Position numbers and translations under genes: made by a program. From Planctomycetota bacterium (GTDB lineage Bacteria; Planctomycetota; Phycisphaerae; UBA1845; UTPLA1), in assembly GCA_015654675.1 (NCBI GenBank), contig JAATGM010000017.1:62001-126000 (forward strand): DNA of 64,000 bases, written 5' to 3'. Position 1 is the first letter of the stretch. Every line of letters starts with the position of its first letter. Below are positions 16,761 to 30,157 of this stretch, piece by piece. The notes below the pieces were generated by a model, which was not told the origin of the DNA, searched no databases, and worked only from the letters and a program-made list of their open reading frames with translations.

Positions 16761-16833
16761 GGGCCCGTAGCTCAATGGTCAGAGCAAGGGACTCATAATC
16801 CCTGGGTTGTCGGTTCGAGTCCGACCGGGCCCA
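16761..16833 (+). tRNA. tRNA with anticodon CAT (Ile2 or elongator Met)
   Basis: 73-nt cloverleaf: acceptor GGGCCCG with CGGGCCC, D-arm GCTC/GAGC, anticodon stem AGGGA/TCCCT with loop CTCATAA, T-arm GTCGG/CCGAC with loop TTCGAGT, discriminator A, no encoded CCA. Anticodon is CAT. It is not the initiator type. Base pairs C4-G69 and C5-G68 resemble the tRNA-Ile2 set that TilS modifies to lysidine in E. coli, so Ile2 is possible; elongator Met is the alternative. Its 3' 44 bases plus one are repeated at 30113-30157, marking it as the likely attachment site of the island. Confidence 0.95.
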
Positions 16834-16834
16834 T
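16790..16834 (+). repeat. Direct repeat, left copy (tRNA 3' half)
   Basis: 45-base segment from the anticodon stem to one base past the tRNA. It matches 30113-30157 at 44 of 45 positions (C at 16801, T at 30124) in the same orientation. This is the layout of an attL site at an intact tRNA. Confidence 0.85.
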
Positions 16835-16951
16835 GCTTCTTATTATCTAAATCTGCGCCTAGCGGAACGGGGACTCGGGGTTCCTGCGCCGATGCTGGCG
16901 TTGGTAGCGGATCGTCGCGGTGCCTAGAGCCGTCGGGGGGGGTAAGGACTC

Positions 16952-17935
16952 TTACGCGCGGCCTTCCTGCGGCACCGGACACGTTTTTAGGTAGTCGAGC
17001 AACTCTGAGACTTGGGAAGTCGCCAGCGCCACACATGAGTCGGCGCCGCCATAGTAGATTCGGACCTCGCCGGTCGCCTTATTGAGAATCCAGCCGCAGG
17101 GGAACACGACATCGCCCACGTCGCCTTGGCGCTCGTAGGGCATTTCTGCCGCGAAGATCCATTCGTCGCTGCGGCGGAGGACGATACGCGGATCTTCGAG
17201 GTCGAGCAGTGCGAGTCCAAGACGATAGAGGCATCCGCCGGCGGTGTGGCGGACGCCGTGATAGAGGATAAGCCAGCCCTCGGGGGTTTCGAGTGGGGGA
17301 GGGCTGAGGCCGATCTTGTTGGCATCCCACCAGGCGCCGCGGCGCGCGTGCATGAGAACGTGATGGCTGCCCCAATGAATCAAGTCGGGCGAAAACGACA
17401 GCCAGATATGCGCACCGGAGCTGCCGGCGGAGACCGGCCGATGGATCATGGCGTACCGATTTCCAAAACGGCGCGGAAAGATGGCGGCGTCCTTGTCTTC
17501 CGGCGGCATGACGGGGCCGAGGCGCGTAAAGGTGATGAAGTCTTTGGTTCGGGCCAGCGAGACGAGGGGGCCGCTGGGGGAGTAAGCCGTATAGGCGATG
17601 AGCCACTCATTGCGATCCTCGACCCAGGTCAGGCGGGGGTCTTCGATGCCCCAGGCCTCTTCGGCGAAGTTCTTCGGATCGGGAGCAAAGCTGGGGGCCG
17701 AATCGATATGCCAATTTGAGATGCCATCGTTGCTTCGCGCGACGGTTAGGTGTGAATGGCCGCGGCGGTCTTCGACGCGCACGAGCAGGATGGTCTCATC
17801 GCCGATCTGACAGGCGCCGGCGTTAAAGACGGTGTGAGCTGGATAGGGCCAGTCGCGGGCAGTGAGGATCGGATTTGCGCTGTGGCGATTGAACAGCACC
17901 GGGTGCAGGCCAGGGGGTTTGGATTCTCGATACAT
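16952..17935 (-). CDS. GH130-family mannoside phosphorylase/glycosidase
   Basis: 327 aa five-bladed beta-propeller enzyme of glycoside hydrolase family 130, which acts on beta-mannosides, often by phosphorolysis. Seen: NPILTARDWPYPAHTVFNAGA, RVEDRRGHSHLTVARS, the AWGIEDPRLTWVED segment that carries the general-acid Asp, and DANKIGLSPPPLETPEGWLILYHGV. Length is normal. An AAGGAAAACAGA ribosome site precedes ATG 17935. It is the last gene of an operon with a six-hairpin protein and a GT4 glycosyltransferase, a set that suggests making and trimming of a mannose-containing glycan or glycoside (inference). Phosphorylase versus hydrolase is not resolved. Confidence 0.9.
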   Translation of the reverse strand: MYRESKPPGLHPVLFNRHSANPILTARDWPYPAHTVFNAGACQIGDETILLVRVEDRRGHSHLTVARSNDGISNWHIDSAPSFAPDPKNFAEEAWGIEDPRLTWVEDRNEWLIAYTAYSPSGPLVSLARTKDFITFTRLGPVMPPEDKDAAIFPRRFGNRYAMIHRPVSAGSSGAHIWLSFSPDLIHWGSHHVLMHARRGAWWDANKIGLSPPPLETPEGWLILYHGVRHTAGGCLYRLGLALLDLEDPRIVLRRSDEWIFAAEMPYERQGDVGDVVFPCGWILNKATGEVRIYYGGADSCVALATSQVSELLDYLKTCPVPQEGRA

Positions 17936-17980
17936 TCTGTTTTCCTTCTGCGCGAGTTCTCGTCGTTGACTCGCGAATTG

Positions 17981-19135
17981 TTATCCACCGACTGCCGCGA
18001 TCTTTCGCCTTTTCGGGGGCGCGGGCTGCAGTTCGGCGTGATGCATTTCTGACAATAGGTAGGCCAGCGTCGACTCGGCTCCCTGGTTTCGATTGACGCC
18101 CGATGCCTGCAGACCGTCGCAGCATGCCCCGAGCCGGGCATCGACGAGCGTTTGTCCGAGACTGTTGCGGCCGTGAAACCAGTTGCGAGCGCGATGGAAG
18201 GCGGCGATGTAGTGCTCTTCGCCGAGGAGGCGAAATGCGGCGAGGGCGGCATCGGCCATTGTGGCGGCTTCGACCGGCTGTTGATCGTAGGGGGACTTTT
18301 CTTCGCCGTGCGAATACCACGCGCTGTTGCCGACGGGCCAGAAAACTCCGTCTGTCGTTGTCCGGCTGTCGAGGAAGGCGAACGACGCCTTCGCAACGTC
18401 GACGAACGGTTCCTTGGGCCAGCATTCGGCTCCGATGAATAGGGCGTGGGGCAAGACCGCGTTGGCATAGGTCATTCGCGACTCAAACCACTGCCAGTCG
18501 GGGCGCTCAGAACGGTGATAGCATTCGAGTAGTCGCTGCGCAGCGGAAAAGGCGACGCTTTCGAGCGATTCGAAGTTTGTCACACCCGCCGACCTCAGGT
18601 GGCCCCAGGCCTGGACGACGTAGGCCTGCGCACGGATGCTGCGGAGATCGGCGATGGTGGGCAGAACGCGCTCAATCAGCTCGCGCGCCAGGATGCGGTA
18701 ATCATTTGGCAGACTGCTACCGAGCACTTCGGCCAAGGCGCGGACGGCCTGGCCCTGACAATCGCCGTCTCCGTCAGTGTCGAGCCAGTGACGCTGGTAG
18801 CTCAGCAGGTTGTGGAATCCGCCGCCAGGACGACGGGCGTACTCCAGGAGACTCAAATACTTTGTTACCCGGCTCAGCATGCGCGGCTTGGCGTGCTGGC
18901 ACCAGAGGCGCGTGCAGAGGCGGAGGGCGCGGGCGTTGTCGTCGATGGTGTAACCGCTTTCGCGGCGAGGTACGCTGTAAATTGCGTGCTGGATGAGCCC
19001 AGTGGAATCCGTCATTCGGTCCAGGTGGGTGAAGGAAATGGCGGGTGGGGCGGATTCCAGCGCGCGCCTTGGGTCGACCGTGCCATCGGCTTGCGTCTTT
19101 TCCTCGGCGATCATTAGCGTATTGACTCCATTCAT
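17981..19135 (-). CDS. (alpha/alpha)6-barrel glycosidase-like protein
   Basis: 384 aa, predicted mostly helical. Motifs include SGYTIDDNARALR, YARRPGGGFHNLLSYQRHWLD and WPVGNSAWYSHGEEKSPYDQQPVEA, which I associate with proteins fused to or adjacent to GT4 glycosyltransferases and annotated as glycosidases or glycosyltransferase C-terminal parts. The DDN and DQQP motifs lie where a six-hairpin barrel would place acidic active-site residues. ATG 19135 overlaps the stop of the GT4 gene (TAATG), so translation is coupled. Enzymatic function is inferred, and substrate is unknown. Confidence 0.75.
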   Translation of the reverse strand: MNGVNTLMIAEEKTQADGTVDPRRALESAPPAISFTHLDRMTDSTGLIQHAIYSVPRRESGYTIDDNARALRLCTRLWCQHAKPRMLSRVTKYLSLLEYARRPGGGFHNLLSYQRHWLDTDGDGDCQGQAVRALAEVLGSSLPNDYRILARELIERVLPTIADLRSIRAQAYVVQAWGHLRSAGVTNFESLESVAFSAAQRLLECYHRSERPDWQWFESRMTYANAVLPHALFIGAECWPKEPFVDVAKASFAFLDSRTTTDGVFWPVGNSAWYSHGEEKSPYDQQPVEAATMADAALAAFRLLGEEHYIAAFHRARNWFHGRNSLGQTLVDARLGACCDGLQASGVNRNQGAESTLAYLLSEMHHAELQPAPPKRRKIAAVGG

Positions 19136-20370
19136 TACACCGCTCCGGGCAACAATTTGTGGGACTGGCCATTTGAGCCGACTCTTGGTGGGGACATCGC
19201 GGACACTTGAGTGCGTCTATTAGCGCTTGCGGTTGCAATATCGGTGAAGAAGTTGAGATACTCGCGGCCCACGTTCGGCCAGCGCATCGGTCTGGCATAT
19301 TCGTATGCCTTTCGGCGGGTCTCCAGTCGGAGTGGTTCGTTTTGCATAAACTGAAGGACCGCCTCGGCAAGCGGGTCGCTCTGACAGAACGGCACCAGCA
19401 GGCCGCGTCCATTTGCGAGGACTTCTTCGGCATATAGATAGGAAGTGCTGACCACCGGCCGGCCCGCGGCCATGGCATAGGCCAACGTTCCGCTCGCAAT
19501 CTGGTCTTTTCCAACGTAGGGAGTGACGTAGACGTCGCAGGCCTGCAAGTGCTCTAGGAGATCTTCGAGACAGAGGAACTTGTTTACAAAGCGAACATGC
19601 GCGCCGACGCCGAGCTTCTCGGCCATCTCGACCAAACTCTCGCGATAGACTTCTCCCTCCTGGCGTTTGACCTGCGGGTGCGTCACGCCAACGATCAGGT
19701 AAATCGCTTCGGGAAAGGCCGCCACGATGCGCGGCATGGCCTTAATCATGTACTCCAGCCCTTTACCGCGGTTGATCAGTCCAAAGGTGCAGATGACGCG
19801 CCGGCCGGCCAGACCCAGCCGCAGCTTGTGGTCCGCTTCATGGTTCGGGGCTACCTCGGGGACTCCGTGCGGGATCATCCGCACGCCCGCGTCTGGCACA
19901 TCGTAGACACTTGATAGCAGGCGCGCGGCGACGTTGGTCATCACCACGATTCCGTGACTGTGGGCCGCCAGGTGCCGGATGATTCTTCGCGGTTGGGGGG
20001 CCGGCTCCGTCATTAATGTATGCAGGGTGAGTACGATTGGTTTGTGACAGGAGAGAACGAAGTCGAGGATCCTGGCGCCCCATTCGCCCGGGTACAGGCC
20101 GAATTCGTGCTGCAGACTGATTACATCGTATGGGCCGTCATTCGCGAATTCCGCGGCACGGCGATAGGCGTCTTTCTGATTGTTGTTGATGATGTGGGCG
20201 ACGCGCGGGTCTTCATAATCGAGGCCGAGAGTTTTCTGAATCGCGGCCAGTGCAGAGACCGGCGCCCGCGCTGCCAAATCGAGTGCGTCTGCCGAATCCT
20301 TCGTGAACGTGGCCAAGCCGCATTCTTCAGGCGGATAAGTGGATACAAACAATGGTCGGACGGCTCGCAC
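19135..20370 (-). CDS. GT4-family glycosyltransferase
   Basis: 411 aa GT-B-fold retaining glycosyltransferase using a nucleotide sugar. N-terminal domain begins [15 protein letters not shown], typical of this GT4 subgroup; the C-terminal domain has [19 protein letters not shown], the EX7E-like donor site in [17 protein letters not shown], and [13 protein letters not shown]. It starts at GTG 20370 with GGAGGTGTTAC directly upstream. It is the first gene of the three-gene sugar operon (GT4, six-hairpin, GH130). Cytosolic; sugar and acceptor are unknown, though mannose is likely from the GH130 partner. Confidence 0.9.
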
Positions 20371-20420
20371 GTAACACCTCCAAGCTCAGCAGGTACGATT
20401 CAGGATCGAATTCGGCTGCA

Positions 20421-20648
20421 TCAAGCTTTCCGGGCGCCCATAACGATCGCGCCGACACCGCCGGCCAGCGCCAATCCGCCAAGGATCGGCGACAGCGGCA
20501 AGGTCTTTTGCGTATCGGCCGTCAGTTTGACGCCTCCCACGTTCACCAGCGTGTCGCGCTTCGTGTAGCTGACGCCCTGCCAGATGAGGGCTGCGGCTCC
20601 GAGGACGGCCAGTATTACTCCGATAGTGATCAAGTTATTACGACCCAT
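20421..20648 (-). CDS. Small membrane protein (DUF3185-like)
   Basis: 75 aa with two hydrophobic helices: LITIGVILAVLGAAALIW near the N-terminus and PILGGLALAGGVGAIVM near the C-terminus, separated by a short loop VSYTKRDTLVNVGGVKLTAD. This arrangement matches DUF3185-type proteins of unknown function that recur near stress genes. AAAGGAATCACGAT precedes ATG 20648. It follows the small DUF3309 gene by 41 bases and so may share its transcript. Confidence 0.7.
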   Translation of the reverse strand: MGRNNLITIGVILAVLGAAALIWQGVSYTKRDTLVNVGGVKLTADTQKTLPLSPILGGLALAGGVGAIVMGARKA

Positions 20649-20689
20649 ATCGTGATTCCTTTCGATGCGCGTGGGCGTTGCGTCCGCGA

Positions 20690-20848
20690 CTAGAAGCGAT
20701 GGCCGGTTATCACGAGAACGAGCAAGATGACCACGACGAGGCCGAGCCCGCCGCTTGGTCCGTAGCCCCAGCTTTTGCTGTGCGGCCACGCGGGAAACGA
20801 TCCGAGGAGCATCAGCACCAGGACGACGAGCAATATGGTGGACAACAT
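20690..20848 (-). CDS. DUF3309 small membrane protein
   Basis: 52 aa protein with an N-terminal helix LSTILLVVLVLMLLG, the central WPHSKSWGYGPSGGLG motif typical of DUF3309, and a second helix LVVVILLVLVI. A textbook AAGGAG ribosome site lies eight bases before ATG 20848. Function is unknown; family members are small membrane proteins common in bacteria that carry osmotic or envelope stress genes. It sits with other such proteins in the island. Confidence 0.85.
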   Translation of the reverse strand: MLSTILLVVLVLMLLGSFPAWPHSKSWGYGPSGGLGLVVVILLVLVITGHRF

Positions 20849-20957
20849 GTCAATTCTCCTTGCAGCTGCGATCCATTTCGCAATGTGCGGTTCGCGTCAT
20901 TTGTTCCGGACGCGTGACGGTTATTCGAGTCTCTTTCTGCCGCGGTTCGGGGCGGAG

Positions 20958-22565
20958 CTATGGACGATCCTTCGGGTTTGCCTTTTGCGGTTCCTTTGAC
21001 TTTGGCGTGAGTTGTTCTGGCGCAGGCGGCTGCTTCAACACCTTCACCACTTCGTCGGCGGCGGCCGGTCGCTTGGGCTCGGGCGCTTTGGGGTCGATCT
21101 TCGGAACCTGGTGACGCTTTGGCGGGGCCTGCTCTTTCGTGAGCTTGTCGGCCGGCTTCGCGACGATGGGTGACCGCGGGGCTTTCAATCGCACTGGAGC
21201 CGCGACCGGCGGGACCATTTGGGGAGCGGGTCGATCGGCGGGCTTCGCAGCAACTGCAACATTCCCGGAAGGAATGGTCTTCGGCTGCTCGATCGGTTGT
21301 GACGGTTTCGACGGGGCGACGAGGACCTTTCTGTCCATCTTCTGGCGTTCACCGCGGTATTGCTGGATTTGTTGCCCGAGTTGCGCGAGCTTTAGTCTTT
21401 CATCCTGGGCGAGTGGTTGAAACCGCTGGGGGCCGCCGACGCGCTTGATGAATTGAGCCAGGGGCGCAGCGAAGGAGAGTCTTTGGTCATCGGGGGCGAC
21501 GCCTTTCGAGAGTAGGTCGCGCATCGCGGCGAGGGTACGCACAGGTCGTGCTTCATCGTGGTCTCGACGCTGAGTGAACGCCGTTTCGTTGCGCTGCTGC
21601 CAGTCTCGATCGTTGCGATGTTCCCAGCGCTGATGGGCGAAGATCGGGTCGTAGCCGAAGCGATTCGAATTAGCCGCGAACGGCGAGTAGTAGCCCGCGG
21701 TCTGGTAAGCCGGGGCGTAGTAATCGCCAAAGTAGTAGTGTTGGTATCGCGGTCGCAAGAAGAGCTGATTCGCAAAGACGGACAGGTTAATGACGATCGA
21801 CGGCGAATATCGGAAGTCTGGTCGCGAATACGCTGGAGAATCGAAGTACACGGGCGCGAATAGAACGCCGCGGCGGTCGATGGAATGATCCCAGTAGCCG
21901 TCGGAAAAGACATAGCCGCGCGGCGCCCACGTGTAGTGAGCTGGGACCCAATCCCAATCCGGCCGGCCGGCTGCCCAGTAACCCGGGCGCCAGGCGTAAC
22001 GGCCTGACTGCCAGATCCAGGAACCTGGTACCCAACCCAAGTTCGTCGCAGGCGCGGCAATATTGGGGCCGACCTCAAGGGAGACGGGCGGCTGCGGAAG
22101 ATATTCGGTTTCAGTTTCGGCTGCGTCGGCCCAGTAGCCAGAGGTCCATTGGAAGCTCTGGCCAGACTGGCCCCAATAGCCGGGTGTCCACTGCCGTCCG
22201 GGCGGAAGATCGCGCCAGATTCCGCTGACCCACAGATAATTATTGCGTTCGTCATCCCAGGCCCAGTAGCCGGGAATCCACGAGACGTTAGCACCGTCGG
22301 GTCGCTGGTCGGGCGGCAGTTCTTCGATGATGTCGGGCGGCGCCTGCGAGACGACGATACCAGGCTCGGGGTTGAAGGTGACTGTCTCTGCAAATGCCTC
22401 GTGGACCGGACCGCGCGTCAGGATCTGCATTCCTTGCTGGGTGTCGGACAAATCGCCGTGTGGGGCAATGGCGCCTTGGAATGAATCCGCTGTTTCCAGC
22501 CCGAACGCCGCGAGGACGATGACCAGGGGCATTAAGGTGCAAATGGCTGCACGACGTACTTTCAT
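20958..22565 (-). CDS. Secreted WxxGYW-repeat protein
   Basis: 535 aa from ATG 22565 (GGAG seven bases upstream). Signal peptide at residues 1-27. Residues about 90-240 contain at least six Trp/Tyr-rich units of the type WIPGYW, WTPGYW, WTSGYW, WVPGSW and WRPGYW, a YXWGXW-like repeat family found in envelope proteins. A Tyr-rich stretch (YQHYYFGDYYAPAY) follows, then a long Pro/Lys/Ala-rich C-terminal tail (about 150 residues), probably disordered. Likely periplasmic or outer-surface. The function of the family is not known. Confidence 0.8.
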   Translation of the reverse strand: MKVRRAAICTLMPLVIVLAAFGLETADSFQGAIAPHGDLSDTQQGMQILTRGPVHEAFAETVTFNPEPGIVVSQAPPDIIEELPPDQRPDGANVSWIPGYWAWDDERNNYLWVSGIWRDLPPGRQWTPGYWGQSGQSFQWTSGYWADAAETETEYLPQPPVSLEVGPNIAAPATNLGWVPGSWIWQSGRYAWRPGYWAAGRPDWDWVPAHYTWAPRGYVFSDGYWDHSIDRRGVLFAPVYFDSPAYSRPDFRYSPSIVINLSVFANQLFLRPRYQHYYFGDYYAPAYQTAGYYSPFAANSNRFGYDPIFAHQRWEHRNDRDWQQRNETAFTQRRDHDEARPVRTLAAMRDLLSKGVAPDDQRLSFAAPLAQFIKRVGGPQRFQPLAQDERLKLAQLGQQIQQYRGERQKMDRKVLVAPSKPSQPIEQPKTIPSGNVAVAAKPADRPAPQMVPPVAAPVRLKAPRSPIVAKPADKLTKEQAPPKRHQVPKIDPKAPEPKRPAAADEVVKVLKQPPAPEQLTPKSKEPQKANPKDRP

Positions 22566-22666
22566 TTTCCTACTCCATCGATGAGGTGAATTCATTTGAC
22601 CGATGTTTAGCCGCGAAGTCGGACGACGCACCGACCGGCTGCGGCCGGCAATTAATCGTGCGACTC

Positions 22667-22900
22667 TCAGCAGTTTCCGTAGGGCGCCGGGAAGCCGAAC
22701 ATCGCATCAATTCGCGCGCCGACCAGTCGGGGCCGATCGCGACTCACTACCGGATAGACGGTTGCGTCTTCCTTCACTTCAAAACTCAGTCTTACGCGAT
22801 TGCTCGCGATCTCGAGTACGGTGACCGTCAGCAGGCGTTCGAACGGATTCTCGCCGCCTACTGCGACCGACTCGCCTTTTCGTATCGAAAGTTCCAACAT
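22667..22900 (-). CDS. CsrA-family protein, divergent
   Basis: 77 aa from ATG 22900 with GGGAGGTTTGGAC upstream. N-terminal MLELSIRKGESVAVGG and RLLTVTVLEIASNRVRLSF align with CsrA beta-strands 1-4, with a short insertion (ENPFER) after GG. The strand-5 region reads ATVYPVVSRDR instead of the usual VHREEI, so the Arg that contacts RNA (Arg44 of E. coli CsrA) is missing. RNA binding is thus doubtful; a regulatory or decoy role is possible. It is monocistronic or paired with the WxxGYW gene 101 bases downstream. Confidence 0.75.
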   Translation of the reverse strand: MLELSIRKGESVAVGGENPFERLLTVTVLEIASNRVRLSFEVKEDATVYPVVSRDRPRLVGARIDAMFGFPAPYGNC

Positions 22901-23067
22901 GTCCAAACCTCCCGATTCGTCAATCATCCTTGAACGTACTCCACACCTGTTTCGGTGCGCGGCTTCTACCAGGCCGCTCATGCCTCCGACCCCCCTCTGG
23001 GCCGGAGGCAGAGTCCCGGTGAATCGCCCGCCGGTGCGACTTGCGTCGCGCGGCGAGCGGGATCAAG

Positions 23068-23238
23068 TCAATTCGGCGCTCGTCTGAACATGCCGGCCAG
23101 GAAGCTCAGTACGGCAAGGACGAGGAAAACGAAGACGAGGATCTTCGCGCCTTCCCATGAGTAGCTCGCCACTCCGCCGAATCCGAAGAAGGCGGCGATC
23201 AATGCAATCACAATGAAGATGACGGCCAGTCGTAGCAT
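23068..23238 (-). CDS. DUF1328 (YtjA-family) small membrane protein
   Basis: 56 aa: first helix MLRLAVIFIVIALIAAFFG with a GFGGVA turn, then a second helix ILVFVFLVLAVLSFLAG and a short basic end. This is the YtjA/DUF1328 layout. AAGGAG lies eight bases before ATG 23238. The family is widespread, small and of unknown function, often induced under stress. Its neighbours in the island are of the same kind. Confidence 0.88.
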   Translation of the reverse strand: MLRLAVIFIVIALIAAFFGFGGVASYSWEGAKILVFVFLVLAVLSFLAGMFRRAPN

Positions 23239-23355
23239 GATTAGTTTCTCCTTGCCGAATCAGCGATTGCCTAAACTAGTGCCACGCACCTCGAGAACCC
23301 CGATGCCCGCTTCAACTGCTAGCAGTCGCAAAGCGGGCTTCGGGGGTTGTAGTCG

Positions 23356-24225
23356 CTAAGCGCCCGCCTTGGTCCAATAGGGCTGAGCGTTGTAGTAGGT
23401 GTGGGTTTCCGTGGCCCAACGCTGGTCGGTGACATTCGGCCAATTGTTCTTGCCGAAACCGACCGAGTCCTTGAGCTGATCCTTGTTGACGTTGAGGACA
23501 TACGCCTTGGCGTCCGTCGGGAGGGTCAGGGCGCTCCAGGGCACAGCGAAGAACTTGTCGTTGTAGGAGAGAACACCGTAGAGAATGCGGCCGCAATCGG
23601 GATCGATGACGAGATCGCTAAGCTTGCCGATGTCCTGCTTCTGAGCATCCACGACGTTCTTTCCGCACAAGTCGCTGCACTTCTGCCAGGCGGTCGTGCG
23701 CTGGTTCCAGCGCTTTCGATAGTCGCCGGCCGCGTCGTCCGATGCCGAATTCCAGTACGGCGTCACGTTATAGAACTTGTAAGTGGATGTCGCCCACTGC
23801 TCGTCGGCGAAGTTCGGCCAGTGGGCCTTCTCGAAACCGGTGGCGGTCTTCAGCCGGTCCTTCTCGACGTTGAGGGTAAAGGCCTTGCTGTCGCCGGAGA
23901 GTTCGAGCGACTGCCAGGGGATGGCGAAGAGCTTATCGCCCATTCCCAGAAATCCGCCGAAGGACAGGACGCCGTAGAGGATCCGGCCCGAATTGGGATC
24001 GACGACGATGTCCTCAATCTTTCCGAGGTTTTCGTTGGCGGCGTTAACGACCTTTTTGTCCATGAGGTCGGTGCATTTCTGCCACCGTTTGCCCATGCTG
24101 AAGTCGTTGGCGGACGGCGTGGCATCGCCGGCCATGGCCAGCCCGCTGAGGGCGAGCACGGTCACAGTAGTGGTTGATGCGATCACCCACTGTTTGATGG
24201 TCTTCGATTTGATACTTGTAATCAT
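23356..24225 (-). CDS. Exported protein with two PRC-barrel domains
   Basis: 289 aa from ATG 24225 (GGAG seven bases upstream). Signal peptide residues about 1-32 end AMAG. Two PRC-barrel domains in tandem: one with LMDKKVVNAANENLGKIEDI..PNSGRILYGVLSFGG, the other with LCGKNVVDAQKQDIGKLSDL..PDCGRILYGVLSY; each ends with an FAVPW/FAIPW strand and a short W/Y-rich linker. PRC barrels are protein-interaction folds. Periplasmic location and a stress-related role are inferred from the signal peptide and context. Confidence 0.88.
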   Translation of the reverse strand: MITSIKSKTIKQWVIASTTTVTVLALSGLAMAGDATPSANDFSMGKRWQKCTDLMDKKVVNAANENLGKIEDIVVDPNSGRILYGVLSFGGFLGMGDKLFAIPWQSLELSGDSKAFTLNVEKDRLKTATGFEKAHWPNFADEQWATSTYKFYNVTPYWNSASDDAAGDYRKRWNQRTTAWQKCSDLCGKNVVDAQKQDIGKLSDLVIDPDCGRILYGVLSYNDKFFAVPWSALTLPTDAKAYVLNVNKDQLKDSVGFGKNNWPNVTDQRWATETHTYYNAQPYWTKAGA

Positions 24226-24325
24226 TTTGTTCTCCGTGTGGCGTCGATCCGGCACGGCTACGCCGCTGTGCCTTCACGCGCCTTGTCAACCTCGTGCGTC
24301 GCGGTCCAATTTGGACGGCGATCGA

Positions 24326-24886
24326 TTAGCGCCAATATTCCGGCGTAAACTCCCAGCCCTGGGGGGAATTCTGCCACCCACCGGCGACAAAAAGCTCACC
24401 CGGCCTGAGTTGCTCAATGCGACCCGGCTGCCATGAGAAGCCGCTGGCATCCGCGACCCAATGGCCGCCGACCCAGAATTCCTCACGGCCCGGAGTGTGT
24501 GAAGGAGTCTCAACTCGTGTAAGCGGTGGTTCCTTTGCGGATACGACAGTCACGTGAGATTGCTGGCTCTCGGCCGTCGCCAGTCCGGGTCCGTATCGGG
24601 ACTCTGCGGCGTGCGCGCGTGTCTGATCAGCGACCGACGGAGCGGCGACAGTGTGTGTCTGCATGTTTGAGTCATAAGACTGCCGAGTGCTGTAGCTCGT
24701 GTCATTAACGGACTGCTGCCGCGGCGGGTAGAGGGGAGTTTCCGAACGCGACGCAACGTACGTTGTATTGCGGCGCGACTCGTTCGTGCGTGTCGACTTG
24801 TCAGTCGACGCGCATCCGGACGATAGCGTTAGGCATGCCGCGGTTGGCAGCAATGCCGAGGTCATTCTCAGGAATTTGGTAAACAT
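24326..24886 (-). CDS. Lipoprotein with WxxGxW-type C-terminus
   Basis: 186 aa. The N-terminal signal ends LSSGCAST, a good lipobox, so it should be lipid-anchored. The middle is Ser/Thr/Gln-rich and probably disordered. The C-terminal 50 residues hold WVGGHW, FSWQPGRI, FVAGGW and GWEFTPEYW, related to the WxxGYW units of the protein at 20958. An AAGGATGACTCA site precedes ATG 24886. It may be the third gene of the operon led by the first structured RNA (mpsC, csrA, lipoprotein). Function unknown. Confidence 0.75.
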   Translation of the reverse strand: MFTKFLRMTSALLPTAACLTLSSGCASTDKSTRTNESRRNTTYVASRSETPLYPPRQQSVNDTSYSTRQSYDSNMQTHTVAAPSVADQTRAHAAESRYGPGLATAESQQSHVTVVSAKEPPLTRVETPSHTPGREEFWVGGHWVADASGFSWQPGRIEQLRPGELFVAGGWQNSPQGWEFTPEYWR

Positions 24887-25047
24887 TGAGTCATCCTTTT
24901 CTGTTTGCGTTCGCTTTCACTCTCGGGCGACGTTTCTGCCGCATACGCGGCGAAACGCGTCAATCGTCGACTTTGTGATTTCATTCCCGTCATTCGCCTC
25001 CTTTCCATCTGCACGGAAAGGGCCGCGTCCGTGCGACAGGGCCCGGA

Positions 25048-25389
25048 CTAATCGCCCGATCGCTTTCCTAAGTCCCCGCCTGAAGCACTCAATGAGCCGG
25101 ATTCCGCCGGCGATGCCGCGGGCGCTGCGGGGCCGCCGCCTTCGTTGTCCCACCGATCGAGTTCACCCTTGCCCACTGCGGAGCATTCCGCTGTTTGGCC
25201 CGGAGGAACGCGGCCGGCATTTCGTTCCCAGATTTCCTGACGCAGGACGGATACATTCGGATCGCCGTCGAATCCCAGTCGAACTTTGCTTCCGCTGACC
25301 TCCAGCACGGTCACGGTGAGCATGTGTTTGCCGCTGTCCTTGCCGCTGACGACAATGGATTCAAGGGGCTTTCTCGTCAGGACCAGCAC
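25048..25389 (-). CDS. csrA: CsrA-family RNA-binding regulator with C-terminal extension
   Basis: 113 aa from GTG 25389 (CGGAG eight bases upstream). Residues 1-60 match CsrA: MLVLTRK, a short insertion (KDSGKH), LTVTVLEVSGSKVRLGF, then VSVLRQEIWERN, which keeps the RNA-contacting Arg. CsrA dimers bind GGA motifs in mRNA leaders and change translation or stability. The rest is a Gly/Pro/Ser-rich tail of about 50 residues not found in canonical 61-aa CsrA. It lies 16 bases after the MpsC gene in the operon headed by structured RNA copy 1, so it could regulate its own leader (inference). Confidence 0.87.
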   Translation of the reverse strand: MLVLTRKPLESIVVSGKDSGKHMLTVTVLEVSGSKVRLGFDGDPNVSVLRQEIWERNAGRVPPGQTAECSAVGKGELDRWDNEGGGPAAPAASPAESGSLSASGGDLGKRSGD

Positions 25390-25405
25390 GGCGCTCGCTC
25401 CGTTC

Positions 25406-25825
25406 TCATGGCTGGTCGTCCGTTCCGGTTTTGTTCCAGACGTCTTCGGGGATGCTGCTGGCGAGCAGATAGACCTGGACCGTTGTGCCGGAAGAAAAGA
25501 CTCCAACAACGGTACCGCTGGCGGGTTCGACTTCTGCTGTCGCTTCACGAACTTCGACGCCGGTGATTCGCTTGATCTCTTCGCGCAGGGAACTGGAAGT
25601 TGTGGTAAAGAGTTGCCGGTGGAACTCCTGCACTTGGGCAGCGCCGGCGGGACTTCGCGCCAGGTTGCGTTCGGCTTCAGATAGCGCGCCGTGCAGGGTG
25701 ATGACCAGGGTGCCGTCGCTCTGGACGACACTGACCGATTGAGGCGCATGCCCGGTGCGCTGCTTCTCGTAAGCGCTTGCAGCGCGGGCGATTCGTTGAG
25801 CCATGTTCGAATTGATTTTGTCCAT
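25406..25825 (-). CDS. MpsC/DUF2294-domain protein (copy 1)
   Basis: 139 aa from ATG 25825 (MDKINSNMAQ); ATG 25834 is an alternative. The body matches DUF2294, now called the MpsC domain after a staphylococcal Na+-dependent membrane-potential system: RTGHAPQSVSVVQSDGTLVITLHGALSEAE, then AQVQEFHRQLF and EEIKRITGVEVREATAEV. No membrane segment is visible, so it would be cytosolic. It is the first gene after structured RNA copy 1 and is followed by csrA. The staphylococcal partners MpsA/B are not in the window, so function here is open. Confidence 0.8.
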   Translation of the reverse strand: MDKINSNMAQRIARAASAYEKQRTGHAPQSVSVVQSDGTLVITLHGALSEAERNLARSPAGAAQVQEFHRQLFTTTSSSLREEIKRITGVEVREATAEVEPASGTVVGVFSSGTTVQVYLLASSIPEDVWNKTGTDDQP

Positions 25826-25881
25826 CGGTGCCATCCCGGGTGAACGCGTTTGGCCCGCGTTACCGAAAAACTGAGCGGAAT

Positions 25882-25990
25882 AAAAAAAGCCGACGTGGTC
25901 GAACACCCTCAGGTATTCAATCACGTCGGCTTACTCTTCAACGGGCCCCCCGGCACTGCCGGGCTGCCCTTTATCTCGTCGTCCGACGAC
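25882..25990 (-). ncRNA. Structured leader RNA with intrinsic terminator, copy 1
   Basis: On the minus strand: a conserved GTCGGACGAC stretch, a hairpin at 25943-25969 (GGGC..CCCGGC/GCCGGG..GCCC), a linker GTTGAAGAGTA, then a long hairpin with outer arms AGCCGACGTG/CACGTCGGCT (25888-25897 and 25922-25931), inner arms GAATACC/GGTGTTC and a four-base loop, ending in seven U (25882-25888). It is copied at 28576-28684. The terminator sits about 57 bases before the MpsC start, the place for an attenuator or riboswitch. I could not match it to a known riboswitch class by eye. Confidence 0.7.
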
Positions 25991-26124
25991 TGAGTTCAGA
26001 ATGTTTGTGGAACCAAGTTGAGCTTCTTAGATCGGCTCTGCTTGTGAATCGGATCATAGTCGCTGCGGCGAGGAAAGCAAGCGAATTGTCGTCGGACCAG
26101 CGGGACTCACGCGCAACTCGGACA

Positions 26125-26283
26125 TCACTTGTCGTTGTTCGAATCGTCCTCCTTCACTTTGTTGTAAACTTCTTTGCCAACCGACATGGCGGCCTTGCCG
26201 GCTATCCACGTGCATTGTGTCTGCGAGAGGATGGCTATTATCACGATCGATCCGAGCAGTTTGATCATCCATGTTCGTTTCAT
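26125..26283 (-). CDS. Small exported or membrane-anchored protein
   Basis: 52 aa. ATG 26283 overlaps the stop of the lysozyme-like gene (ATGA), so it is coupled to it. Hydrophobic N-terminus MIKLLGSIVIIAILS is followed by QTQC, a weak lipobox, and then a charged tail SVGKEVYNKVKEDDSNNDK. It may be a lipoprotein partner of the lysozyme-like protein; no family recognised. Confidence 0.6.
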   Translation of the reverse strand: MKRTWMIKLLGSIVIIAILSQTQCTWIAGKAAMSVGKEVYNKVKEDDSNNDK

Positions 26284-26729
26284 CGTAATGACCTTCTTGC
26301 GGGCGAGTGGTGCGGCAGTACAGCACGCGGCCTGGCCAGGCGGGCGCGGACTCGTTGCCAATACTGAATAGTCGACTGCTTCAATTGCCCCGTGGGACCG
26401 CCGTTGTGAATGCGTGCGAGCGTTTCGAAATCGGGGAGCAGCAGCGCGTCAGGACAATATCGCTGCCAATAGGCGAGCATGACGGATTCGGAATAACCGC
26501 GATTCCGGCAATCGTCCCACGATCCCGGAATGCCGCTGTCTTTCCAATAGGCCCGCGATATCTGATAGGGTCCGATTGAGCGACCGCCGTCGCCGACGGC
26601 CTCATGACTGTTGGCTACTCCGCCGGACTCGACCGACCGGATCGCATCGAACAAGAGTACCACACGGTCGTTTGGGTTCGCGGCGATGGCGACCAGGGCA
26701 CATGACACTGATAGGAATATGCTCAACAT
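26280..26729 (-). CDS. Invertebrate-type (destabilase) lysozyme-like exported protein
   Basis: 149 aa with an N-terminal signal peptide (cleavage near AIAA). The core has AIRSVESGG with a candidate catalytic Glu, GRSIGPYQISRAYWKDSG, YSESVMLAYWQRYCP and ARIHNGGPTGQLKQSTIQYWQRV, which follows the order of i-type lysozyme (GPYQI..YW..C..V..Y..RY..ARIHNGGP..YW). The disulphide-rich Cys pattern of animal enzymes is mostly absent. Probably a peptidoglycan-acting muramidase in the periplasm (inference). It follows the sigma-factor gene by 36 bases in the operon led by RNA copy 2. Confidence 0.75.
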   Translation of the reverse strand: MLSIFLSVSCALVAIAANPNDRVVLLFDAIRSVESGGVANSHEAVGDGGRSIGPYQISRAYWKDSGIPGSWDDCRNRGYSESVMLAYWQRYCPDALLLPDFETLARIHNGGPTGQLKQSTIQYWQRVRARLARPRAVLPHHSPARRSLR

Positions 26730-26765
26730 TCGACTGGCTCATTGCTTTGGAACTCGGAGAATCAC

Positions 26766-27611
26766 TTAGCTCAGGACGGCGTCTTCGCCGATGGCCCGGC
26801 GGAGCTTGCAGAATGCCCGAAACTCAATCTTGCGGATGCGCTCCTTACTGAGGAGCATCTGCCGGCCAACCCGGTCGAGCGTGGGACGTGGGTAGTATTC
26901 GAGTGGTTGATTGGGAGCTGGAAACCTTCTAGAGAGGACCTCCCGCTCGACGTGAGATAGCTCGGCGCGGTTGTTTCTCATGATTTCGCTCAACCGTTCG
27001 ACGTAGAGCATTTCGCTTTCGGCACGGCGCGTTTCCGGGAAATCGCTCTTTTCAAATTCGGGGTCGAACTCCGCGGTCAGGGTCGAGCGGCGACGCACAT
27101 CTCGATACGCCAACTTCGCGAACGCGCGCAGGATTGCATTGCAGGCGTAGGTGCTGAGGCGGAAGCCGCGCCACGGATCGAATGTATCAACTGCCCGCAA
27201 CAAGGCGATCATGCCCTCGCTCAATAATTCATCGTGGTCGGGCCCCATGAAGCGGCTTCGGCCGAGCAGGTTGTAGACCAGGCCTATGTTGGCATCGATT
27301 AATCGTTGCCGGATCGCGTGATAGCGACTGGCCCAGCAATCGTATTGGGGATTGATCGACGGGCGAAACGATCTGGCGGCCTGCTGATAGAAGTGGCTCA
27401 GTCTATATGCACAGAAATTGAGCTGCTTGAAGAGCAGGGTTTCCTCGATCGGGTCGATGCGGCTGGCGTTGACGGGCAGCTCGGTCCAATCCGCGAAGAG
27501 AATCTTCTCTGTGGACGAGCACTCCAACTCGACATTCATGATGTAGGGCGGGGGATGCAGCCAGCCGGCGATATGGGCAGAGTTCGATTTTTTTGTGACG
27601 ACACGACGCAT
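26766..27611 (-). CDS. Sigma-70-family RNA polymerase sigma factor
   Basis: 281 aa from ATG 27611. Region 2 is clear: ANIGLVYNLLGRSRF..DELLSEGMIALLRAVDTFDPWRGFRLSTYACNAILRAF, including the core-binding and -10-recognition helices. Region 4 is LSHVEREVLSRRF..TLDRVGRQMLLSKERIRKIEFRAFCKL, a helix-turn-helix for -35 recognition. Region 1.1 is absent and region 3 is reduced, so it is an alternative group 2/3-like factor. No anti-sigma gene is adjacent. It lies four bases after the DUF1571 gene and before the lysozyme-like gene, so it may control the island's stress genes (inference). Confidence 0.88.
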   Translation of the reverse strand: MRRVVTKKSNSAHIAGWLHPPPYIMNVELECSSTEKILFADWTELPVNASRIDPIEETLLFKQLNFCAYRLSHFYQQAARSFRPSINPQYDCWASRYHAIRQRLIDANIGLVYNLLGRSRFMGPDHDELLSEGMIALLRAVDTFDPWRGFRLSTYACNAILRAFAKLAYRDVRRRSTLTAEFDPEFEKSDFPETRRAESEMLYVERLSEIMRNNRAELSHVEREVLSRRFPAPNQPLEYYPRPTLDRVGRQMLLSKERIRKIEFRAFCKLRRAIGEDAVLS

Positions 27612-27615
27612 TGAT

Positions 27616-28518
27616 TCACATTCCGTACGTAAGAGGTTCAAAGTCCTGGTCGGTCAGCCCGACCTGCATGCGGACGCTTCGATATTCGTATTTGGCGATG
27701 AGATTTCGGGGCTGACGATCTTCATTTGAATAGCAGTAGATCGCGACAGGCACGCGGAACTCTTTGTCGACAAGGATTTCGGCGATGCGGTCTGGGTAGA
27801 CCCCGCCCTCGCCCTTGAATGGAAGAATGCGCCTGACCACCCAGACCGGCCTGCCGTCGAATTGGGTTTCGCCGATGAAATCGATCGTTAACTCGCCGTT
27901 TGATCTGGCGAGTTCGCTGACCCCGATAAGGCGGTCGAGGGTCTTCTGGAATCCAAAATCGTCAATGAATCTTCGCGATACCCTACGGGCCCGGCAGCCA
28001 TGGATCGGCTCCTTTACGCTCTTGACGAAGATTCGGGCAATGGCGCCGGGTTGTGCGATCGCCAGTTCGCGTTCGGCGGGGTCAGTCGCGGTCGCGTCGT
28101 TCCATCGGCCTTTGACATAAAGCACGCGGGCGGCCAAGCCGGGGTTTCGCTGCCATTCCATATAGACGCTGTAGGGGGCGTGCCGGAATTTGACCTTGAT
28201 CTCCTGTTCCTTGCTCATCCCGTCGGGAAGAAGCTCTTGCTTGACCATCACGCATTCGTAGTCGATCACAGCTCGCAGATGCTGAGTGCGGGCTTCGATC
28301 AGTGCTTTCAGCGGATCGTGCCGAATGAGCGCCTCGAACGAGTCGGCGTTTGCCATTTCCGTCTCTCGAATGATCGGGGCCTGCCGGTCGATTGAGGCGT
28401 TGGGTCCGGCGCTCAAAGGGAATTGCGAACAGAAAATCGCGATCAACCCGAAGCCGAGGAAAAACCTCGCTCGGTTGCGATTGATCCGCTTCATCAGATT
28501 TGAAACTGCCTGCTTCAT
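27616..28518 (-). CDS. DUF1571-family exported protein
   Basis: 300 aa with a basic N-terminus and signal segment FFLGFGLIAIFCSQFPLSAG. The mature part has the DUF1571 pattern: DYECVMVKQELLPDG..EQEIKVKFRHAPYSVYMEWQRNPGLAARVLYVKGRWND, and a C-terminal DGRPVWVVRRILPF..RIAEILVDKEFRVPVAIYCYS. The fold resembles LolA/outer-membrane-lipoprotein-sorting proteins in general outline, but this is only a similarity of pattern. It is the first gene after structured RNA copy 2 and heads the operon DUF1571, sigma, lysozyme-like, small protein. Confidence 0.82.
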   Translation of the reverse strand: MKQAVSNLMKRINRNRARFFLGFGLIAIFCSQFPLSAGPNASIDRQAPIIRETEMANADSFEALIRHDPLKALIEARTQHLRAVIDYECVMVKQELLPDGMSKEQEIKVKFRHAPYSVYMEWQRNPGLAARVLYVKGRWNDATATDPAERELAIAQPGAIARIFVKSVKEPIHGCRARRVSRRFIDDFGFQKTLDRLIGVSELARSNGELTIDFIGETQFDGRPVWVVRRILPFKGEGGVYPDRIAEILVDKEFRVPVAIYCYSNEDRQPRNLIAKYEYRSVRMQVGLTDQDFEPLTYGM

Positions 28519-28575
28519 CGGTCCTGTTCCGGGTGACCGCGGCCTGTCCGCACCACCATGAAAATTGAGTAAAAC

Positions 28576-28684
28576 AAAAAAAGCCGACGTGGCCGAACAC
28601 CCGCAGGTATTCGATCACGTCGGCTTACTCTTTAACGGGCCTCCCGGCGCGGCCGGGTTGCCCTTTAGTTAATCATCCGACGAC
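28576..28684 (-). ncRNA. Structured leader RNA with intrinsic terminator, copy 2
   Basis: Same order as copy 1: GTCGGATGAT stretch, hairpin 28637-28663 (GGGC..CCCGGC/GCCGGG..GCCC), linker GTTAAAGAGTA, long hairpin with arms AGCCGACGTG/CACGTCGGCT (28582-28591 and 28616-28625), then seven U (28576-28582). Differences from copy 1 fall in loops or keep pairing: inside the long stem T-A became T-G and T-G became C-G. It stands 57 bases before the DUF1571 start. Confidence 0.7.
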
Positions 28685-29244
28685 TTCGATTTCATATCAT
28701 TACCGGAGCTCTATGAAGGATCAGAAAGACTCCGGACGTGGTTGAATCATAGCATGTGGATTGAGGAAGGCAAGGCGAGCTTTCAGTGGCGTTGGCCTAG
28801 GCGGGTCGGCCGGAGTGCAATTCCAAACATTCTCGGTTCAGCAATTGCCGCGTTTGCTTGCGTGGAACGATCAGGACTTCGACGAGCCCGTCGCGACGCG
28901 GCCGAGTGTTGCCAAAGGCGCGCGTCTCGATACTGGAGTTCAAAGCTGCGGCCAGGACAAGGGCACCAGGAGCGACGCCAGGGCTTGGGTCGCTCAGAAG
29001 CTGATTTCCCCTCCGCAGCTCGGTCCACTGGTTCGCACTGCAGCTACAAGCAAACAAGTCGAGGGAAGCCGACATGCGATTCACAGGAGCCCCATTCTTG
29101 GTTACAATCCGGATCTCGAATCCGAGAAAGCGACGGAACAATCATCCGCGAATTGGATCGAGCATTCATTTCCCTCGATCATAATGCGTGAGTGAGTTCG
29201 GAGCGTGCTTCCGCAGGCGGATCGGGAACTCGTGGAGTTTGATC
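28685..29244. other. Intergenic region, no convincing gene
   Basis: 560 bases. Several frames stay open (28742-29191 and 28761-29195 plus, 28797-29141 minus) but none has a good ribosome site or recognisable motifs, and their translations are Arg/Ser-rich. The end nearest 28685 should hold the promoter of RNA copy 2; the end nearest 29245 holds a GGAG ribosome site for the next gene. Confidence 0.5.
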
Positions 29245-29625
29245 GTGAAGACGCAGGGAGAGATCGAAGCCGCCATTTGCGATGGGATCAGTCGGTTTGA
29301 GCAGGAATACATGGGGCGGGGGCCCAAGGATATTCATGCATTCCTGATCAACGACCTGCTCGTGGTTCGGCTGAAGGGGGTTCTGACGGCGGCTGAGCAA
29401 CAGTTGGTCAAGGTGCTTCCATCCGATAAGGGGCGGGATCTGCTCAAACAGGTCCGAAGCCAATTGATCGAAACCGGGCGGCCGGTGATGGAGGCGATGG
29501 TTAAGGCGGTGACCGGCGTGACGGTGGTGAGCTTGCACCACGACATCAGCACGGTGACGGGGGAGGAGTTGGTGGTTTTTACGTTCAGCGAGTCGCCGCT
29601 GTTTCGAGAGGCGAAGCGAAAATAG
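29245..29625 (+). CDS. MpsC/DUF2294-domain protein (copy 2)
   Basis: 126 aa from GTG 29245, which has GGAG seven bases upstream; the longer frame from 29188 has no such site. Domain features: EAAICDGISRFEQEYMGRGPKDIHAFLINDLLVVRLKGVLTAAEQQL, then MEAMVKAVTGVTVVSLHHDIST. The VVSLHHDIST strand and GRGPKDI motif are typical of this domain. It is the only clear plus-strand gene inside the island and is distant in sequence from copy 1. Cytosolic; function unknown. Confidence 0.8.
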   Translation: MKTQGEIEAAICDGISRFEQEYMGRGPKDIHAFLINDLLVVRLKGVLTAAEQQLVKVLPSDKGRDLLKQVRSQLIETGRPVMEAMVKAVTGVTVVSLHHDISTVTGEELVVFTFSESPLFREAKRK

Positions 29626-30112
29626 GCATTGCGACGACGGCGTCGCTGATCGTAACGGCCGTGTTGTAAAGGTGGTTCCGCGGGGATGGCGGCGGTTCAT
29701 CCGGCCAGCAGGTGCTTGAGGTCCTTAGCACAGCGATTAGCGGTGGGGCGGCCGAGGTTTGGATTGGCCTGCGACGCTGGCGGCTGCCAGCGGCGAATGG
29801 GACTCGAAATGCGCGGAGTTGCGCGAGTGGCCGAATAGACCATGCGCGATCGCCTACGTCGATGACGTTGCGTGGCGTGCCATCAGGCGGCGCCCGCCCC
29901 CACCCGGGCTAGCACCACAATGGCCTCCCGAACCGACATGGGCAGCCCCGGCCAAGCTCGGCGGATTAGGTCGAAATCGGGGTCGACGGAGGCGCTTCCA
30001 GTCGGATTTGCAGCGCATTCTGCAGCGCGTGGCGGGTTGCCCGGATCGGCGGCTTGACGTAACTCGCGATTGTCTGGATTGTTGCCGCCGGTTTCGGCAT
30101 CGGATGATGCGC
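29626..30112. other. Right end of island, no intact gene
   Basis: 487 bases between MpsC copy 2 and the right tRNA repeat. Open frames are present but without ribosome sites or known motifs, except the minus-strand tail listed separately. Confidence 0.5.
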
Positions 30113-30119
30113 GACTCAT
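29883..30119 (-). pseudogene. Possible integrase C-terminal remnant
   Basis: 78-residue minus-strand reading frame beginning within the right tRNA repeat and running into the island. Its end DPDFDLIRRAWPGLPMSVRE AIVVLARVGAG resembles, from memory, the short (D/L)..AWP.LP..(V/I)R..I..(L/M)V tail seen after catalytic domains of planctomycete tyrosine recombinases. No catalytic Arg/His/Tyr residues are present, so it would be only the last piece. The likeness could be chance; this needs a database search. Confidence 0.3.
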
Positions 30120-30157
30120 AATCTCTGGGTTGTCGGTTCGAGTCCGACCGGGCCCAT
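30113..30157 (+). repeat. Direct repeat, right copy (partial tRNA)
   Basis: 45 bases identical to 16790-16834 except T for C at 30124. It contains the anticodon loop, variable loop, T-arm and 3' acceptor strand but no 5' half, so it cannot form a tRNA. This is the expected attR of an element inserted in the tRNA 3' end. Confidence 0.85.

Follow-up and report, generated by a model that had tools for sequence, protein, structure and literature searches.

A tRNA(CAU)-associated island in a Planctomycetota bacterium and the leader-like RNA, a candidate attenuator, that it carries

We consider it probable that site-specific recombination inserted a module of stress genes into the 3' part of a tRNA(CAU) gene in a Planctomycetota bacterium, and that a structured RNA within this module, D1, acts as an attenuator switch. 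The DNA concerned is the window, a stretch of 64,000 nucleotides (assembly GCA_015654675.1, contig JAATGM010000017.1, positions 62,001 to 126,000 of the forward strand), in which repeat boundaries and composition delimit an island body of 13,278 bp at 16835..30112. As mobile DNA the island is of a well-known type, and the RNA inside it matters more.

The left end of the island is an intact tRNA gene with anticodon CAU (16761..16833, plus strand), called Met by ARAGORN, but possibly a lysidine-type tRNA-Ile2, which its acceptor stem resembles. An att-like repeat of 45 bases, running from the anticodon stem to one base beyond the tRNA 3' end (16790..16834, plus strand), recurs in the same orientation at 30113..30157 (plus strand), with 44 of 45 bases identical at an offset of 13,323 bases and the sole mismatch in the right copy, within its anticodon-stem part. 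The first-pass annotation had described this recurrence with its single mismatch, as well as the lack of the 5' half from the right copy, and sequence comparison bears out both, the fragment starting at the anticodon stem. Searching the whole genome with the tRNA produced 14 matches: the gene itself, the fragment, a second CAU tRNA (85% over 62 bases), five further tRNAs and six that are short or weak. A third copy of the repeat was not among them, and the match of tRNA and fragment is confirmed as real and beyond chance. As in tRNA-site islands, the intact tRNA is retained and its 3' part lies as a direct repeat at the far end.

Between the repeats the GC content is 0.596 against 0.622-0.636 in equal-sized flank windows, about 3 points lower, and GC and tetranucleotide usage both fall outside the flank-window range, so that the comparison of composition suggested by the first-pass annotation sets the island apart. 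From left to right, the minus strand encodes a GH130 family glycoside phosphorylase-like protein (16952..17935; Pfam PF04041, 1.9e-54), a protein without Pfam match that stands between GH130 and GT4 in the same order in a relative, G001 (17981..19135), a GT4-type glycosyltransferase (19135..20370; PF00534, 2.2e-21), a small membrane-like protein without Pfam match that we take to be DUF3185-like (20421..20789), a WXXGXW-repeat protein (20958..22631; PF12779, 1.2e-6), a CsrA-like protein, CsrA1, with its start inferred at MLELSIRK (22667..22900; PF02599, 3.6e-5, below the curated cut-off), a PRC-barrel protein (23356..24255; PF05239, 5.4e-26), a protein without Pfam match whose N-terminus is lipoprotein-like by eye (24326..24886), a second CsrA protein, CsrA2, with a C-terminal extension and an inferred GTG start (MLVLTRK; 25048..25389; PF02599, 1.1e-11), an MpsC (DUF2294) protein, MpsC1, with inferred start (25406..25834; PF10057, 4.3e-20), a small ORF without Pfam match, similar to one in the G008 region (26125..26361), a destabilase/lysozyme-like protein (26280..26729; PF05497, 3.8e-7), a sigma-70 family factor (26766..27641; PF04542/PF04545) and a DUF1571 protein (27616..28518; PF07608, 8.5e-32). 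A second MpsC protein is divergent (29188..29625, plus strand; PF10057, 8.3e-36). On the left flank lies the ribosomal protein S1 gene rpsA, a long ORF divergent from the tRNA (14235..16376, minus strand, start not fixed). On the right, the gene g30175 (30175..30714, plus strand) begins with a GTG codon at 30175, 17 bases after the right repeat copy, in line with the earlier remark that it starts right after the repeat; it is the probable original right neighbour, its homologue adjoining mnmA at the same locus in the relative G011.

Between the repeats, neither an intact integrase gene nor a broken one turned up in the proteins scanned and the searches run (PF00589 and tblastn), the first-pass annotation having already noted the lack of an intact one; the integrase gene that a tRNA-site island would contain was thus not detected. 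The PF00589 search identified five tyrosine recombinases in the same genome, every one on other contigs, and tblastn of these five against the island gave no significant match (best E 0.08). Remnants sought with recombinases from G045, G017 and L326 yielded no credible island match: the G017 integrase ORF overlaps the tRNA, which explains why its two matches (E 6e-4 and 0.04) coincide with the tRNA and the fragment, and one match of L326 (E 2e-4; 78 residues, 31%), located in the WXXGXW gene, was not retained. In the search for phage genes, PHROGs applied to 10 proteins matched a sigma-factor family only. The Pfam and PHROGs scans of island proteins showed no IS or transposase, and no independent boundary was found within the repeats.

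The tRNA neighbourhood was compared in 15 of 16 family relatives (all but G004), on contigs of which some are short. Among those fetched, rpsA adjoins the tRNA, with the same divergent pairing, in G011 alone; a homologue of g30175 occurs in 11 of the 16 relatives and lies near the tRNA solely in G011, at 10.8 kb by contig positions. The flanks rpsA-tRNA and g30175-mnmA keep their order in G011 around an unrelated 10.8 kb of normal GC. Fifteen island query proteins gave no match at the 20-kb G011 locus (E 0.01), a 20-protein query set detected no island genes at that locus or in 20 fetched tRNA stretches, and the repeat is absent from G011, where the best candidate agrees with the 3' part of its own tRNA at 23 of 44 positions. 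No empty site was found, G011 being the only one of the 16 relatives seen with both flanks. Because G011 has 10.8 kb there without a repeat, variation at this locus may also have other causes. A rival account would have the right copy stem from an ancient duplication, on the spot, of the 3' part of the tRNA, with ordinary, vertically inherited genes in between, in accord with the missing integrase and with the large, repeat-free interval of normal GC in G011; however, the bounds of the copy, from the anticodon stem to one base past the 3' end, match att sites, the G011 content is unrelated, GT4 is patchy, the island composition is distinct and an unconstrained old copy should exceed one mismatch per 45 bases, and we regard this account as very unlikely. 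The original claim of a tyrosine-recombinase insertion is partly supported: the att-like repeat, the flanks common to G011, the composition and the patchiness speak for it, and no empty site was found to add to them.

Two other relatives, G045 and G017, members of the same order, carry tyrosine-recombinase genes at the same tRNA, beside and overlapping it respectively. The tRNA 5' half is copied exactly over 38 bases at a distance of 12.3 kb in G045 and over 42 bases at 20 kb in G017. These elements resemble the island in targeting tRNA(CAU) with a repeat that extends to the anticodon region, and differ from it in that the 5' half is duplicated exactly and a tyrosine recombinase is carried at the tRNA. 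One tRNA has apparently been used for insertion from both halves in related planctomycetes.

The distribution of the cargo is uneven. Of 17 family genomes, 4, the source genome among them, have close GT4 homologues (69-100% identity), two more have homologues at 43-45% and 11 have no match at E 1e-60; the survey of presence and absence recommended by the first-pass annotation accordingly finds GT4 patchy, and patchy cargo of different GC and tetranucleotide usage is a feature of tRNA-site islands. For DUF1571, patchiness is confined to close homologues and is not seen in the family as a whole. MpsC, CsrA and DUF1571 recur at unrelated loci in relatives, to which G001 adds GT4/GH130. The same cargo in the same order at unrelated loci had been named as evidence against insertion; part of the set does lie so, in similar order in G001 and loosely in G008. 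Since partial cargo sits at unrelated loci in these genomes, the module predates the present insertion, a result that does not contradict insertion. No matching tRNA repeat was found flanking the module in G001 or G008, and therefore the tRNA route is not the module's general rule; a tRNA-Ser repeat around the G001 module was considered and rejected, the tRNA-Ser lying 1.9 kb from GH130 and its 3' part not being found again on the opposite side. These modules away from matching tRNA repeats, together with the undetected integrase, would suit a history in which homologous recombination or transposition delivered the inter-repeat DNA, the tRNA fragment being the relic of a previous element that had nothing to do with it. 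That history is quite unlikely in our judgement, the searches above having detected neither an internal boundary nor an IS or transposase.

Tyrosine-recombinase insertion at the tRNA, with the enzyme acting in trans or since lost, is the best reading, and with it we infer both the recombinase and the direction of transfer. The incoming DNA would have brought a new tRNA 3' half, which now forms the left end, and the fragment at 30113-30157 would be the 3' half that it displaced from the host gene; as no integrase is left, the enzyme would either have acted in trans or have disappeared once insertion was complete.

Two copies of D1, an RNA of about 109 nt, lie on the minus strand of the island as structured, leader-like elements with a terminator-like hairpin: D1a (25881..25989), 46 nt upstream of the inferred MpsC1 start, and D1b (28575..28683), 56 nt upstream of the DUF1571 gene, which score 121.1 and 124.3 bits with model R1, for which they are themselves training sequences. 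D1a is followed by MpsC1 and then CsrA2, D1b by the DUF1571 gene and then the sigma-factor gene. The source genome has seven copies. The two island copies are absent from the first-pass annotation.

D1 reads as a candidate riboswitch-like attenuator. It has a pair of hairpins that covary, of which the second resembles a terminator, and its 5' segment can form an antiterminator. In 137 distinct rows, which include 16 model-building rows, a weak match on the opposite strand (L154:6846-6937) and G008 records duplicated under public names, and in most of which the CCGACGUG/CACGUCGG arms were preset by the search pattern, 94.0% of cells of the 31-pair structure are paired, against 30-47% when it is slid; both sides change in 27 of the 31 pairs, and none of 500 shuffles reached as high on any of five measures. 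The first 16 copies likewise have this conserved, covarying secondary structure. Over 131 copies conservation starts at UCGGAUGAC, without an upstream block, and no conserved promoter lies ahead of D1.

The position of D1 relative to genes is markedly one-sided. ORFs of at least 120 aa start within 100 nt downstream on the same strand in 77 of 113 copies, compared with 17/113 on the divergent side and 221/565 random places (26 of 139 matches, repeats or near locus ends, having been dropped), and 56 of the 77 start 18-75 nt past D1 within the 100 nt searched. A Shine-Dalgarno-like motif before 37 of 97 downstream ORFs is neutral evidence. A survey of 111 ORFs gives approximate counts: it drew on 108 of the 133 downstream ORFs from a mechanical first pass, some of them spurious, and also took in a trimmed MpsC1 and two neighbours on the divergent side (L167:9327-9794, L154:6196-6573). 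D1 might instead be no leader switch but an independent small RNA, or a terminator that recurs ahead of stress genes: it ends in a strong terminator-like hairpin, no promoter signal separates leader from small RNA, and several copies occur per genome. The strand bias towards downstream genes, the scant promoter space between D1 and most of these ORFs and the complementarity of the 5' segment to the terminator arm all argue against this alternative, which we think rather unlikely.

Folding points towards the attenuator. When D1 is cut before the terminator 3' arm, the mean probability of pairing between CCGA and the 5' segment is 0.96 in 111 copies and 0.31 with the 5' segment shuffled, and the UCGG/CCGA stem has a probability of 0.95 in truncated D1 vs 0.001 at full length; these means hold for copies with recognisable segments, 111 of 139 rows being kept after repeats, short rows and those without a recognisable UCGG or CCGACG were dropped. 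A further set of matches, A6, includes weak opposite-strand ones. The antiterminator register, chosen after trying five on 72 distinct rows of 100-128 nt, has 277 of 288 four-pair cells paired vs 3-49% in the four others. The stem itself shows no covariation (82.9% of cells paired vs 83.1% shuffled, 84 distinct rows); folding and register favour mutually exclusive antiterminator and terminator forms, covariation does not. During transcription the 5' UCGG would pair with CCGA into an antiterminator stem; should that stem not persist, this same CCGACGUG would join CACGUCGG as terminator and transcription would stop before the gene, the winning form being set by a bound ligand, ion or protein.

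One putative candidate for that protein is CsrA, binding conserved GGA motifs in D1 and thereby setting termination. A GGAUGA-like segment is conserved near the D1 5' end, CsrA2 follows MpsC1 downstream of D1a, and the two CsrA queries match 15 and 25, possibly overlapping, of 115 D1 contig stretches among the matches listed; yet GGA is not kept in every copy and CsrA1 falls below the Pfam cut-off, and control by CsrA is unlikely.

Among the matches listed, 63 of the 115 stretches hold homologues of island proteins and 52 hold none of island type, and five flank proteins match none of the 115. Planctomycete titles stand on 114 of these 115 and proteobacterial ones on none; matches per genome reach 19 in G008 and 14 in G001, some being opposite-strand matches to the same hairpin, and one case lies on a phage-like contig. 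Among named strains, Bythopirellula polymerisocia Pla144 has D1, at L284 and L323. Strong covariation, multiple copies in some genomes, occurrence in many planctomycetes and frequent placement before or near stress-type genes together give D1 its interest. A serious possibility, if a somewhat doubtful one, is that D1 is an undescribed Planctomycetota riboswitch class which, on sensing stress through an alarmone, ion or metabolite, turns on a dispersed general-stress regulon by antitermination, its modules travelling with the switch on islands and once on a phage-like contig. Should the antiterminator switch and stress control that we infer hold, D1 would reveal how stress responses are controlled in planctomycetes and offer an orphan riboswitch candidate for ligand screening.

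Among known RNAs, Rfam 15 at gathering thresholds detects tRNA only in the whole window. At E up to 5 the island stretch gives only P17 (E 0.39) and four other loci give three miRNA/snoRNA families (E 1 to 4.6), all far below cut-offs, one of the three, mir-341, lying on the opposite strand of a D1 copy; assignment of D1 to an Rfam 15 family is rejected. No title or abstract start listed by the literature searches pointed to D1, which is no proof of its being unpublished. The table columns of Weinberg et al. 2010 are reportedly RNA, cis-regulatory and switch. The Rhodopirellula-1 motif, with the row '?, y, ?' and no Rfam accession, is listed for Proteobacteria and Planctomycetes (PMC2864571). 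D1 and this motif may be identical. The motif's row spans Proteobacteria; of the D1 stretches listed, 114 of 115 carry planctomycete titles and none a proteobacterial one. The island departs from tRNA-associated islands in having no integrase and in that one syntenic relative holds other DNA there, and it shares with tyrosine-recombinase tRNA islands the tRNA 3' part as flanking direct repeat, the patchy cargo and the different GC. D1 is unlike riboswitches and attenuators in matching no Rfam 15 family and in preceding many gene kinds rather than a single pathway; like those that terminate transcription, it combines a conserved structured leader, a terminator-like hairpin before the start codon and, as predicted here, an alternative antiterminator stem.

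The only tRNA that ARAGORN predicts in the window has the anticodon CAU and lies at 16761-16833, and sequence comparison bears out the first-pass annotation that its 3' part is repeated, with 16790-16834 recurring at 30113-30157 in the same orientation with one mismatch in 45 bases. The repeat starts four bases 5' of the anticodon and ends one base beyond the tRNA, and crossover by a tyrosine recombinase within the anticodon loop is expected to leave a repeat of such span. Used as a query against the whole genome (4.93 Mb, 62 contigs), the tRNA recovered these two sites, the remainder being other tRNAs or short weak matches. The gene said to follow directly on the right repeat does so, its start at 30175 preceded by a GGAGG motif. 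The GC comparison proposed in that annotation places the intervening island (16835-30112), at 0.596, below all 241 equal-length flank windows (0.622-0.636), and in tetranucleotide usage the island lies at a distance of 0.150, where 49 flank windows reach 0.122 at most. The island was probably inserted by recombination at the tRNA.

An empty site, with the tRNA joined to the gene at 30175, was not found among 16 other genomes of the family, the genomes searched including none of the same genus. Both window flanks are shared by the relative G011, in which rpsA and the tRNA are followed by 10.8 kb and then by homologues of the gene at 30175 (44% identical), of mnmA (66%) and of the next two genes. 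The 10.8-kb interval encodes a beta-helix protein, a sigma factor, a kinase/solute-binding fusion and a small protein; its GC of 0.641 is near the flank values of 0.642 and 0.658, searches with 15 island proteins gave no match to it at E 0.01, and it holds no copy of the tRNA 3' part (best 23 of 44 positions). Such an unrelated interval of normal GC (L093, contig C22 of G011) suggests a site that is variable even without repeats. Among the tRNA neighbourhoods of 15 of the 16 relatives, where G016 and G006 are represented by short contigs, G011 was the only one with rpsA, or any of 20 query proteins including five from the flanks (E 1e-4), near the tRNA. Homologues of the 30175 gene and mnmA lie side by side in five relatives (G008, G009, G001, G005 and G016) and thus form an old pair, with no tRNA in the stretch around it in any of the five.

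The same tRNA appears to be used as a target elsewhere. When 60 relatives were searched with it, exact copies of its 5' half were found in G045 (38 bases) and G017 (42 bases), placed 12.3 kb and 20 kb upstream of the intact tRNA, respectively; the local repeat scans that found them covered 19 relatives. The bounding positions are 5188-5260 and 17552-17589 in G045 (L055, contig C20) and 123445-123517 and 143556-143597 in G017 (L057/L058, contig C10). A tyrosine-recombinase gene lies beside or overlaps the tRNA in both, that of G045 falling below the Pfam cut-off (E 5.6e-5). The integrase reading frame of G017 extends into the tRNA gene. These stretches resemble a mirror image of the window island, in that an element there would supply the 5' half.

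The cargo comprises what we take, from Pfam labels and general knowledge, to be stress genes, and PHROGs searches of 10 proteins gave no phage genes except a sigma-factor family. The first-pass annotation had counted the presence of the same genes, in the same order, at unrelated loci against insertion, and part of the set does recur: G001 carries MpsC, CsrA, MpsC, DUF1571, MpsC, MpsC, CsrA, GT4, an unnamed gene and GH130 within 16 kb, and in G008 part of it is scattered across about 58 kb with GT4 on a different contig. Neither a matching tRNA repeat around the set nor a homologue of the five integrases of the window genome was found in the 90 kb (G001) and 115 kb (G008) examined. In contig C1 of G001, a tRNA-Ser(TGA) near 2,666,898-2,666,984 is separated by about 1.9 kb from the module's GH130 end, and its relative orientation matches that of the window tRNA; no 3' copy of it was found at the other module end. 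GT4 has homologues at 69-81% in three of the 16 relatives (G009, G001 and G008) and at 43-45% in two more, the other 11 having none at E 1e-60. DUF1571, at above 60% in G001 and G008 only among relatives, is weaker evidence of patchiness because homologues occur in 60 of 61 genomes.

A 125-base repeat inside the island (86% identity) led to D1, an RNA of about 109 nt with seven clear copies in a search of its own genome. Sixteen aligned copies from this genome, G008 and G001 share two hairpins and a U tract after the second. Within the order, the covariance model R1 finds D1 in 42 of 114 genomes (E 0.001), and it finds D1 in at least 12 of 392 across the phylum (E 1e-5, own genome included), a lower bound with nine candidates scored per genome. 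When 84,980 species genomes were scanned with an exact pattern, at least 115 stretches came up; among the matches listed, all 115 hold an R1 match and 114 have planctomycete titles, at least three (L223, L291 and L325; JACRIM01) being apparently G008 itself, whose copies helped build R1. The remaining stretch, L322, is titled an Acidimicrobiales MAG; its D1 match at 1314-1423 is strong (105.6 bits) and may reflect either mis-binning or transfer, and none of the 20 query proteins matched its 8 kb. G486, a single 7.3-Mb contig from the same phylum outside this class, has nine matches, most near 3.65-3.67 and 6.89-6.90 Mb.

Across 137 distinct rows the 31-pair structure has standard pairs in 94.0% of cells, against 30-47% after sliding the partner strand, and both-side changes in 27 pairs; no shuffle matched it on any of five measures. 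Because the pattern behind most rows fixes CCGACGTG and CACGTCGG, independent weight attaches to the first hairpin and the upper stem but not to the lower terminator stem. In folding of the transcript up to the terminator 3' arm, a 5' UCGG/CCGA stem forms with mean probability 0.95; it gives way to the terminator when the transcript is folded at full length. In its best register this complementarity of four bases is kept in 277 of 288 cells, as against 3-49% in four others (72 copies, not all pattern-chosen). Covariation was looked for in this stem and gave no support; the stem sequence hardly varies, perhaps because one strand is shared by the two stems. We infer that D1 switches by antitermination.

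ORFs of at least 120 aa start within 100 nt after 77 of 113 copies; the divergent side gave 17 of 113, and places picked at random 221 of 565. Approximate Pfam counts for 111 neighbouring ORFs are MpsC 21, BON 4, DUF1571 4, KaiC 3, ice-binding 3, CsrA 2, YflT 2 and HSP70 1. Among the matches listed, 63 of the 115 stretches encode a homologue of any island protein and 52 none (MpsC2 44, MpsC1 36, CsrA2 25, in sets that may overlap), and the five flank proteins have no match. With good confidence, D1 is a conserved structured RNA positioned as a leader; judging from the genes it precedes, it may respond to stress. The viral contig L326 (IMGVR_UViG_3300032397_001619; 22.5 kb, 13,951 bases examined) has at 2306-2938 D1 and, after it, an MpsC homologue (60% over 146 residues). 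This phage-like carrier of an MpsC gene and its leader-like RNA also encodes terminase, portal, endonuclease VII and integrase. A title-level literature search found no published description pointing to D1, Rhodopirellula-1 being represented in it by a table row alone; that row, which has no Rfam accession, places Rhodopirellula-1 in Proteobacteria and Planctomycetes (Weinberg et al., 2010; PMC2864571).
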